From assembly GCA_903642275.1 (NCBI GenBank), contig CAHJWK010000018.1, positions 1-54,733 of the forward strand: 54,733 nucleotides of DNA, in the 5' to 3' direction. The notes beneath the pieces were generated by a model that saw only the letters and a program-made list of their open reading frames with translations, ran no database searches and was not told the DNA's origin. Each line of letters opens with the position of its first letter. Within the stretch, counting starts at the first letter, position 1. The DNA comes from Chitinophagaceae bacterium. Lineage in GTDB: Bacteria; Bacteroidota; Bacteroidia; Chitinophagales; Chitinophagaceae. The position numbers and the translations under genes were made by a program. Below are positions 1,242 through 40,243 of this stretch, one piece after another.

Positions 1242-1312
1242 TGCCTGATAGTATAAGGGTAGTACATCAGATTTTGATTCTGAGTGTCTTGGTTCGAATC
1301 CAGGTCGGGCAA
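1242..1312 (+). tRNA. tRNA-Gln (anticodon TTG)
   Basis: A full cloverleaf is visible. The acceptor arms are TGCCTGA (1242-1248) and TCGGGCA (1305-1311). The anticodon stem is TCAGA/TCTGA around loop TTTTGAT, giving anticodon TTG. The T arm is CTTGG-TTCGAAT-CCAGG. The CCA end is not encoded: the discriminator A is followed by CA. A terminator hairpin follows directly. Confidence 0.96.
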
Positions 1313-1314
1313 CA

Positions 1315-2569: not shown

Positions 2570-2888
2570 CTACAAACCCGGGTCATCGCTTCGAGTTAAT
2601 CGGGGAGGAAAGTCCGGACAGCATAGGGCAACTTACCATGTGTTAAACATGGCTTCTTATTTATAAGAAAGAGATAGTGCCGCAGAAAATAACCGTTCCG
2701 CTTGGCGGAGTAAGGGTGAAAATGTGAGGTAAAAGCTCACGTTCTGTTATGGTAACATGGCAGAAGGGTAAACCTTAGGTGCTGCAATGCCACATAAAGA
2801 AGCGTTTGAGAGCTGCCCGTTCAAGCTTCAGGGTAGGCAGCATAGATAAATGATGACTTAAACAGAATCCGGCTTACGAGGTTTGTAG
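2570..2888 (+). ncRNA. rnpB: RNase P RNA (bacterial type A)
   Basis: This is the catalytic RNA that processes tRNA 5' ends. The CR-I/P4 5' signature GAGGAAAGTCCGGACAGCAT begins at 2605. The matching 3' signature ACAGAATCCGGCTTACGAGG ends at 2881. The terminal P1 helix is formed by CTACAAACC (2570-2578) and GGTTTGTAG (2880-2888). The length of about 319 nt is normal for the phylum. Together with the flanks this RNA explains the gap between 2374 and 2924. Confidence 0.95.
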
Positions 2889-2924
2889 TTTTTCAATTTC
2901 TACTTTTTAATTTCAATTTGCACT

Positions 2925-39381: not shown

Positions 39382-39858
39382 TTATCTTTTTAATTCTGTC
39401 ATCTGCACATCTCTTACAAAACTTTCTTCCAGCGAGATGATGGTATCGGTACGTTCAATACCTTTTATTTTTTGCAGTTCATCATGTAAAAAAAGTTTTA
39501 GCTCGGCAATATCTTTACAAACCACTTCTGCAAACATGCTGTAATTACCCGTTGTATAATTAAGGCGTACTATCTGCGGAATTTTCTTTAATTCTTTTGC
39601 AACTGAATCATACAAAGAACTTTTTTCAAGGTAGATACCGATAAATGCAATTACATCATATCCAAGCAGTTTGTGATCAACATACAGCTTGGTACCTTTA
39701 ATTACATTTAGCTGTTGCAATTTTTTTATGCGGACATGAATGGTGCCGCCCGAAACGAATAATTTCTTGCCCAGGTCAGCATAAGAAATGTTAGCGTTAA
39801 GCATCATGGCTTGAATAATCTGCAAATCCAGTTTGTCAATATTTAATTCTTTATTCAT
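39382..39858 (-). CDS. Lrp/AsnC family transcriptional regulator
   Basis: The 158-residue protein has an N-terminal winged helix-turn-helix (about 6-55: LDLQIIQAMMLNANISYADL, LFVSGGTIHVRIKKL). The C-terminal RAM/ligand domain (about 75-150) contains LNYTTGNYSMFAEVVCKDIA. It probably responds to an amino acid. The convergent neighbour, alanine dehydrogenase, is a plausible target but this is inferred from position only. Confidence 0.92.
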   Translation of the reverse strand: MNKELNIDKLDLQIIQAMMLNANISYADLGKKLFVSGGTIHVRIKKLQQLNVIKGTKLYVDHKLLGYDVIAFIGIYLEKSSLYDSVAKELKKIPQIVRLNYTTGNYSMFAEVVCKDIAELKLFLHDELQKIKGIERTDTIISLEESFVRDVQMTELKR

Positions 39859-39996
39859 ATTTAATACTTAATTAGATAAAATTTAATAAAGCTAATAATA
39901 ATTAGATAATATCTATAATTACAAAAATTAACTTGAATAATTTCTATCAAACTGAAATATCTTATAATATTGCACCGGTAATTAAAGTTCTTTATA

Positions 39997-40166
39997 CTGT
40001 GGGGTGATGAAATTTTGGCAGACATGCCCTCTCGTCTCGGGGGTGGAGATCAAAGGATAAACTGAACATAGAGCCGACGTAACACCAGTTAGGCCGACCG
40101 GGGTTGACCACCAGTCTTTGTGTTTGTGCTAACTTCTCCGTGGAGGTTCGATCCCTCCCCCTACAG
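39997..40166 (+). ncRNA. Structured RNA with a complete tRNA-like fold and giant variable arm
   Basis: All tRNA arms are present in order. The acceptor is CTGTGGGG (39997-40004) and CCCTACAG (40159-40166). The D arm is ATG/CAT with GG in the loop (40017-40018). The anticodon-like arm is CCCTC-TCGTCTC-GGGGG (40027-40043). The T arm is GGAGG-TTCGATC-CCTCC (40142-40158). The variable arm has base stem GGAGA (40045-40049) and TCTCC (40135-40139) but encloses about 85 nt instead of a few. No U33 and no purine at 37, and GTC as the apparent anticodon, make decoding unlikely. The total is 170 nt; CCA is not encoded. Alternatives (pre-tRNA with insertion, divergent RNA class) remain open. Confidence 0.65.
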
Positions 40167-40182
40167 CTAAATGTATTGACCT

Positions 40183-40243
40183 GCGGTTAGATCACCAACT
40201 TCGTTAAATAGGATTAACCAACGCTTTAAGTTAGCACTTACAC
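40183..40243 (+). ncRNA. Hairpin and long-range pairing partner downstream of the tRNA-like RNA
   Basis: A hairpin pairs GGTTA-g-ATC (40185-40193) with GATTAACC (40212-40219), with an inner AAC-TTC-GTT loop stem. Next, AAGTTAGCAC (40228-40237) is an exact complement of GTGCTAACTT (40126-40135) in the variable arm of the tRNA-like RNA. A further ACAC (40240-40243) pairs with GTGT (40120-40123) across a TT/TT internal loop. This would form a pseudoknot with, or an alternative to, the tRNA-like fold. It suggests the RNA extends past 40166. Confidence 0.5.

Follow-up and report, generated by a model that had tools for sequence, protein, structure and literature searches.

The window, by which we mean the whole 54,733-nt stretch of Chitinophagaceae DNA that was analysed, contains a class-II tRNA-like RNA gene that appears to stand alone and whose product is probably, to judge from sequence, a dedicated carrier for making or sensing asparagine and not a codon-reading tRNA. 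We observed a family of such RNAs, a conserved structure, a set of identity nucleotides, a place beside asnC and a co-occurrence with GatB. It is the combination of marks for aspartate loading and for amidation, an adjoining gene of the asparagine-sensor type and co-occurrence with the converting enzyme that leads to this reading. The best explanation in our view, with a probability of roughly 0.6, is a dedicated non-decoding RNA for tRNA-dependent asparagine formation, on which AspRS and GatCAB would act. We regard the RNA as new as an RNA class, and the amidation chemistry is already known; judged by pathway only, the system would be a variation on tRNA-dependent asparagine formation.

The RNA gene and its parts

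From the window copy and its homologues, it is clear that the RNA has the tRNA-like frame proposed in an earlier sequence-only reading, as a 3-bp D arm with GG and a 5-bp anticodon arm are seen in both, the T loop reads TTCGANY across homologues, and the giant variable arm of about 95 nt is closed by a base stem that covaries (Table 1). The acceptor stem, which that reading had put at 8 bp, stands as 7 bp plus the discriminator G73; the eighth pair does not hold up, being C-G in 92, U-G in 20 and a mismatch in 6 of the 118 copies described below. The pairs that it had drawn inside the variable arm (CAAAG and ACTG with CAGTCTTTG, and AGTTAG with CTAACT) give way to other helices, which are the ones conserved in relatives.

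The total length of the RNA ranges from 110 to 212 nt in the family, through the structured variable arm. In the minimal form of 110 nt, this arm consists of the base stem, an asymmetric bulge, a 3-bp stem, an internal loop GAUAAA/CUAA and a hairpin, while the window copy is a longer form that carries two extra hairpins beyond the next stem. The AA of CUAA is kept in 118 of 118 copies, and the internal loop appears to resemble the UAA/GAN motif.

At the 3′ end, CA would plausibly have to be added to the encoded G73-C74. None of the 39 tRNA genes of the window genome encodes CCA: 37 end with the discriminator and one C, one ends with CC and one with none. Since a G-C end without CA is thus the form of 37 of the 39, completion of CCA on the RNA is plausible.

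Table 1. Positions of the RNA gene, its structural parts and neighbouring features in the window.
Feature	Position	Strand	Details
tRNA-like RNA	39997..40167	+	class II, stand-alone; model positions 1-173; covariance model search match, blastn conservation
Predicted mature 5′ end (position 1)	39998
Last encoded tRNA position (C74)	40167
Acceptor stem, 5′ strand	39998..40004	+	UGUGGGG (U1, G2); pairs with 40159-40165
D arm	40007..40025	+	AUG/CAU; tRNA-Leu-like loop, G18 G19, A20a, no U20a (our numbering)
Anticodon-like arm	40027..40043	+	loop UCGUCUC at 40032-40038; GUC at 40034-40036; C38 at 40038
Variable arm, about 95 nt	40045..40139	+	base stem 40045-40048/40136-40139
Variable arm, inner 3-bp stem	40053-40055/40133-40135	+
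Variable arm, conserved internal loop	40056-40062 opposite 40127-40132	+	GAUAAAC opposite UGCUAA
Variable arm, stem	40063-40070/40119-40126	+
Variable arm, hairpins	40073-40094 and 40100-40112	+
T arm	40142..40158	+	GGAGG-UUCGAUC-CCUCC
Acceptor stem, 3′ strand, and 3′ end	40159..40167	+	CCCUACA, discriminator G73 (40166), C74 (40167)
AsnC-type Lrp/AsnC regulator gene	39382..39858	-	divergent from the RNA, 138 nt away
TTGAATAATTT box	39933..39943	+	candidate AsnC site (putative)
TAATATTG	39965..39972	+	Bacteroidota-type -7 promoter-like box
Leader GTTCTTT	39987..39993	+	boxA-like
RNase P RNA class A	2570-2892	+	212.4 bits; ordinary
tRNA-Gln	1242-1313		ordinary

Detection and distribution

Using blastn, matches were found in 35 of 59 relatives (the window's own genome included), and a covariance model was built from 29 homologues. 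This model matches 259 of the 396 genomes in a survey of the order at E ≤0.001, about 238 of them strongly (E 1e-16 or better); the other 21 matches by our count, with E above 1e-16 (two near 1e-14 and 19 weaker), were set aside because weak matches may be ordinary tRNAs. A survey of the phylum gave matches in 166 of 395 genomes, of which 40 were kept as strong, and these belong to several other orders and to one group (f68) outside the class. The long matches of the phylum survey score at least 75.9 bits and the next one 56.2 bits with lengths of 74-89 nt from there on, and all ten of the weak matches (<57 bits) that were fetched proved to be ordinary tRNAs, nine tRNA-Leu and one tRNA-Asn.

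A pattern scan of named genomes found at least 120 stretches. Among the matches listed are Chitinophaga, Ferruginibacter, Terrimonas, Pedobacter, Mucilaginibacter and others, and also Saprospiraceae, Cyclobacterium, Algoriphagus, Spirosoma, Dyadobacter, Fulvivirga and one Ignavibacteriales MAG. The pattern-found and model-found loci partly overlap (L188 and L029, for example, are the same sequence). Since the search pattern fixed GTCNC, the pattern-found loci L123-L202 were excluded as evidence for anticodon conservation, which would be circular at those positions; conservation and covariation were scored on 118 distinct copies that BLAST or the covariance model had picked up without any anticodon pattern, 89 of them outside the model.

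No family of Rfam 15, the tRNA model RF00005 included, matches the window RNA at E values up to 10, and nine matches at E ≤1 were returned for 19 loci with diverse members, none of them at the gathering score (T-box and riboswitches included). ARAGORN calls none of the 118 copies by default, and when introns of up to 200 nt are allowed it calls eight, with scattered identities. The class has been missed so far because the tRNA finder and the Rfam release used do not model it. No publication on this RNA was found among the best literature matches, as judged by title and start of abstract or by title, and a separate non-decoding RNA class with these marks has no counterpart in Rfam 15 or in the literature searched. 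The lack of an Rfam match and of a default ARAGORN call, the deep conservation of the family and its strong covariation all agree with the earlier suggestion of a tRNA mimic or novel class, and a widespread structured RNA class is thereby added to the phylum Bacteroidota.

Covariation of the structure

Among the 118 copies, 33 of 46 pairs have changed on both sides, and 97.4% of the paired cells are indeed paired, compared with 85.2% in shuffled and 43.8-54.4% in slid controls. None of 500 shuffles attains the observed pairing and covariation values, a result to be read knowing that kin sequences can beat such shuffles without any structure and that the alignment was fitted to the covariance model, so that its structure is favoured. 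The D stem and the inner 3-bp stem of the variable arm are absent from the covariance model, yet both covary. All helices of the cloverleaf (acceptor, D, anticodon and T; helices 1, 2, 3 and 11) covary, with 99.2% of cells paired and both-side changes in two of three pairs for the D arm, and 100% of cells paired and both-side changes in two of five pairs for the T arm. In each of helices 4-10, which make up the variable arm, one pair or more shows changes in both partners. The compensatory changes in relatives thus speak for the acceptor stem, the T stem and the base stem of the variable arm, the very stems on which the sequence-only reading had staked its claim.

Thermodynamic folding, which by itself does not exceed chance, was dropped as evidence for structure and covariation used in its place, the z values lying between -1.15 and +0.76 (-0.40 for the RNA alone, +0.76 with the downstream stretch, and -1.15 to +0.17 for three minimal relatives).

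Identity nucleotides

U35, C36, C38, G73, C74 and the pairs U1-A72 and G2-C71 are invariant in 118 of 118 copies. G34 is found in 115, with C or U at this position in the three copies from G784, G569 and G718. Because the covariance model weights the anticodon loop, these counts may overlook copies whose different anticodon lowers their score. In bacteria, the Asp identity set consists of G73, G10, G34, U35, C36 and C38, according to the cited passages of the review by Giege and Eriani (PMC9976931). The AspRS determinants G73, G34, U35, C36 and C38 are present in 118, 115, 118, 118 and 118 of the 118 copies, respectively, and G10 is not kept, position 10 being A in 92 copies (the window copy among them), U in 14 and G in 12. 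Also against charging by AspRS, the RNA has another pair in place of the G1-C72 of tRNA-Asp, to which a part in placing the 3′ end in AspRS is ascribed.

For amidation, the same passages state that U1-A72 is needed by GatCAB on Asp-tRNA-Asn, and that tRNA-Asp is protected from GatCAB by the antideterminants G1-C72 and U20a (PMC9976931). The RNA carries U1-A72 in every copy and has neither G1-C72 nor U20a; position 20a (in our numbering) is A in the window copy, at 40020, and invariant in 29 aligned copies. The window genome's own tRNA-Asp has G1-C72, U20a (again in our numbering) and the anticodon loop CTGTCAC, and its tRNA-Asn, like the RNA, has U1-A72.

Co-occurrence with GatB

The expectation that the RNA should be accompanied by GatCAB was drawn from U1-A72 before GatB was searched for, and the 61 genomes used were likewise picked beforehand by RNA status from the order and phylum surveys. 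The 26 genomes without the RNA comprise nine from outside the window's family, chosen among those listed, and the RNA-lacking ones of that family, from whose 19 we removed G169 and G390 because a contig end truncates the RNA that these two have. With presence of GatCAB scored through GatB alone, GatB was found in 35 of 35 genomes with the RNA versus 2 of 26 without it, and the two exceptions, G451 and G481, have no GlnRS and so plausibly need GatCAB for Gln-tRNA. AsnRS is present in 61 of 61 genomes and GlnRS over the cut-off in 54. Within these 54 genomes, which have both synthetases, GatB occurs in all 30 that carry the RNA and in none of the 24 that lack it, an agreement of 54 out of 54.

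On an AsnRS tree of 60 rows (G675 left out, bootstrap not settled, two rows with long branches), the RNA and GatB each need 8 changes. Independent pairs on supported branches go in the same direction in 6 of 6 cases (sign test, p 0.03), and when the genomes without GlnRS are added, an average of 5.7 of 7 pairs do so, none being opposite. In the phylum sample, which was less selected, every one of the 40 genomes whose RNA match is strong has GatB. Among the Bacteroidia of this sample, four genomes have GatB without a strong RNA match (G451, G481, G559 and G604), the GatB match being weaker in G559 and G604 and GlnRS having been scored, among the four, for G451 and G481 only. Rows outside the class mostly have GatB without the RNA, as expected if GatCAB serves translation there.

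The asparagine synthetase genes were also compared. As an explanatory trait asnB was rejected, being unrelated to the RNA (24 of 30 versus 19 of 24 GlnRS-containing genomes with and without it), and asnA leans the opposite way (1 of 30 versus 5 of 24, p 0.08), which is suggestive only. Since most genomes with the RNA also have asnB over the cut-off, the window genome included, the RNA is not their only asparagine source. Neither asnA nor asnB is over the cut-off in 6 of the 35 genomes with the RNA, where the RNA route could be the main asparagine supply, versus 4 of the 26 without it; the latter four are the reason why absence of both genes does not decide the purpose of the RNA.

The co-occurrence with GatB would be accounted for equally well if the RNA were a scaffold or regulator of the transamidosome, which binds AspRS and GatCAB and tunes or assembles the complex, the amidated substrate being tRNA-Asn misacylated by a non-discriminating AspRS. 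At the residue that is L or H in the discriminating and non-discriminating classes of AspRS, the enzyme here has F. This main rival agrees with the U1-A72 pair of the genome's own tRNA-Asn, with the known existence of genomes that hold AsnRS, GlnRS and GatCAB, and with the lone AspRS of Bdellovibrio, described as non-discriminating in the cited part of one study (PMC4206432); we consider it unlikely, as by itself it leaves unexplained the AspRS determinants and the tRNA-style G73-C74 end of 118 of 118 copies. Rather improbable, in turn, is a role as amino-acid donor, in which Asp-RNA or Asn-RNA would feed an aminoacyl-tRNA-dependent transferase that decorates a lipid, a peptide or a cell-wall component. 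The same identity nucleotides and GatB data speak for a donor, and a non-decoding body would suit it, but no transferase family was noticed among the gene clusters shared by the 1.5-kb flanks, a range in which a distant gene would be missed.

The AsnC-type neighbour

The protein encoded next to the RNA has E. coli AsnC (2cg4) as its best PDB match, at E 6.5e-31 with the next at 8.8e-19; its best NCBIfam model is AsnC, at 155.8 bits and below the cut-off of 227, and it lies above the cut-off of Pfam AsnC_trans_reg. Comparison of the 1.5-kb flanks gave AsnC as the sole neighbour common to most loci. A divergent AsnC gene is found in 69 of 80 loci, within a narrow range of distances; contig ends cut three of the 11 exceptions. 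Among 79 named loci it is found in 51, the remaining 28 having no AsnC homologue near the RNA, some of them being cut by locus ends. Across 80 genomes searched, an AsnC match of at least 150 bits was present in 48 of 48 with the RNA, this cut lying above the 114-136 bits reached in genomes of family f25 without it. In the GlnRS-containing genomes of the co-occurrence set the corresponding figures are 30 of 30 with the RNA and 5 of 24 without it, the 5 of 24 depending on the 150-bit cut. Four genomes of the window's family (G236, G034, G290 and G414) have an AsnC-level match and no RNA, either in a pattern look at some 900 nt upstream or by the covariance model.

Some further arrangements were seen around such genes. 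An AsnC-like gene (39% identity, 114 bits) has asnB as its divergent neighbour in G463, a genome without a strong RNA match. The f25 genomes seen have no strong RNA match either, and in three of them (G437, G477 and G467) the AsnC-like match contains a single in-frame stop, which may mark a pseudogene or come from alignment run-on. A gene for TrmB, the tRNA (guanosine-46-N7)-methyltransferase (225.6 bits), lies beside asnC in L244 of G236, where there is no RNA, and in L018 and L028 the gene after the RNA looks similar on visual comparison.

Upstream of the RNA, the TTGAANNATTT box is found in 55 of 156 regions versus 0 of 156 shuffled ones. In the 60 nt upstream, 104 of 156 loci have the motif TAnn[AT]TTG, presumably the Bacteroidota -7 consensus, a raw count without shuffled control. 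The boxA-like leader GTTCTT occurs in 77 of 226 copies versus 1 shuffled. Downstream, a simple scan found a terminator-like hairpin in 81 of 116 relatives versus 17 of their shuffles, and the same scan found none in the window itself.

A stand-alone gene beside a regulator gene, often with such a hairpin (the same 81 of 116), could also encode a regulatory RNA only, that is, a tRNA mimic acting on AsnC, AspRS or mRNAs for which charging is irrelevant, and tRNA-Other of B. cereus, as its abstract describes it, offers a precedent (PMC3399842). We regard this as quite improbable, since a purely regulatory role would not predict that G73/C74, U1-A72 and C38 are invariant or that the RNA and GatB agree without exception across 54 genomes.

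The anticodon loop

The absence of U33, which the sequence-only reading had pointed out, holds for the window copy, which has C33, and only partly for the family: of the 118 copies, 70 have U33, 40 have C33, 7 have A33 and 1 has G33, so that U33 is missing in 48. Position 32 is also variable, and position 37 is U in 107, C in 7 and G in 4, that is, a pyrimidine in 114 copies and a purine in four. All 39 of the window genome's own tRNAs have U33 and a purine at 37. The RNA does not have this decoding-competent loop (U33 with purine 37), and its positions 33 and 37 look unfit for decoding. The GUC anticodon and the U33 of 70 copies could point to a tRNA that decodes Asp codons or serves in recoding, which is nonetheless very improbable in view of the pyrimidine 37, the 48 copies without U33, the normal tRNA-Asp present in the window genome and the harm that Asn at Asp codons would presumably do.

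Proposed function and relation to known systems

For the dedicated, non-decoding carrier that we favour, the charging, the amidation, the control by AsnC and the fate of the asparagine are steps that we infer. AspRS would load aspartate on the RNA by way of GUC at 34-36, C38, G73 and G2-C71, and GatCAB would turn the resulting Asp-RNA into Asn-RNA, recognizing U1-A72 and meeting neither G1-C72 nor U20a. The large variable arm, together with a loop that looks unsuited to decoding at positions 33 and 37, would keep the RNA off Asp codons. Low asparagine would probably induce the RNA via the AsnC-type regulator, since the RNA gene, its promoter facing the regulator gene, occupies the slot that asnA has beside AsnC in E. 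coli, where AsnC activates the divergent asnA, less so with asparagine present (as stated in the cited part of PMC8707732). The Asn product may be free asparagine or a signal; that free asparagine is the purpose of the RNA we propose tentatively, with rather less than even confidence. The wider picture, in which a private, ribosome-excluded tRNA-like RNA would serve the Bacteroidota as a platform for asparagine synthesis, induced by an asparagine sensor, is in our estimate an even bet.

The closest known system is tRNA-dependent Asn formation on tRNA-Asn by a non-discriminating AspRS and GatCAB, known in Deinococcus, Thermus and Bdellovibrio. Common to both are GatCAB beside AsnRS and GlnRS, the U1-A72 amidation mark and the loading of Asp first, which is published for tRNA-Asn and presumed for this RNA. 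Unlike tRNA-Asn, the RNA has GUC and not GUU, a non-decoding loop and a giant variable arm, and, unlike in the tRNA-Asn route, an ordinary discriminating AspRS could charge it. Its D arm and class-II layout are like those of bacterial tRNA-Leu, to which nine of the ten checked cross-matches of the model belong, and it differs from tRNA-Leu in G73 in place of A73, in GUC, in its length of 110-212 nt and in pyrimidine 37. It also resembles tmRNA in standing alone and in having an acceptor and a T arm like those of tRNA, and differs from it in having full D and anticodon arms; the tmRNA model (RF00023) is over its cut-off in the window genome only on contig C142, elsewhere from this RNA. The tRNA-Other of Bacillus cereus is another tRNA-like RNA, one with no function in translation, as we propose here too, and its abstract, by whose description we compare the two, gives no GatCAB or AsnC link (PMC3399842). 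The gene arrangement is that of E. coli asnC-asnA, with an AsnC-type regulator divergent from its target and a function in asparagine supply, the latter proposed here and described for E. coli in the cited part of PMC8707732, except that the target slot holds an RNA gene and not asparagine synthetase A.

In a survey of 547 genera, AsnRS, GlnRS and GatCAB occur together in 67-68 genera; 18 of these, Bacteroidetes among them, lack asparagine synthetase, and where deltaproteobacteria have one the authors suggest that GatCAB may be vestigial (cited passages of PMC4206432). In a smaller survey, 1 of 14 Bacteroidetes has GlnRS together with gatCAB and 12 have GlnRS alone (cited passage of PMC3927822). 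The RNA offers a testable answer to why GatCAB persists in genomes with AsnRS and GlnRS: if the proposed function is true, it would be for amino acid biosynthesis on a dedicated RNA. A loop that fixes the bases read by the synthetase and frees those read by the ribosome would amount to natural amino acid chemistry on RNA uncoupled from decoding.

Downstream sequence and tandem copies

A switch of the RNA between two folds by means of 40228-40243, which the sequence-only reading had raised, is hardly credible: the stretch offers a 10-nt perfect complement (attained by 13 of 500 shuffles) and the minimum-energy fold of the longer stretch uses this pairing, but no blastn match in 58 other genomes passes query position 185 (about 40174), even the closest relative's match (97% identity) covers query 3-179 only, and, since no relative's match extends to 40228-40243, the long-range alternative is not a family feature. 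The reverse complement of 40228-40243 shares GTGCTAACTT with the RNA, and the stretch may be a decayed inverted copy or a matter of chance.

Tandem copies of the RNA were also seen, two in 40 and three in 4 of 179 loci, some of which overlap (for example L016:1756-1878, L021:1721-1839, L030, L114-L122, L273 and L275). A seemingly decayed 3′ half of a second copy follows the intact one at L013:1686-1768. Such tandems often combine a long with a minimal form, as if both versions were maintained together.
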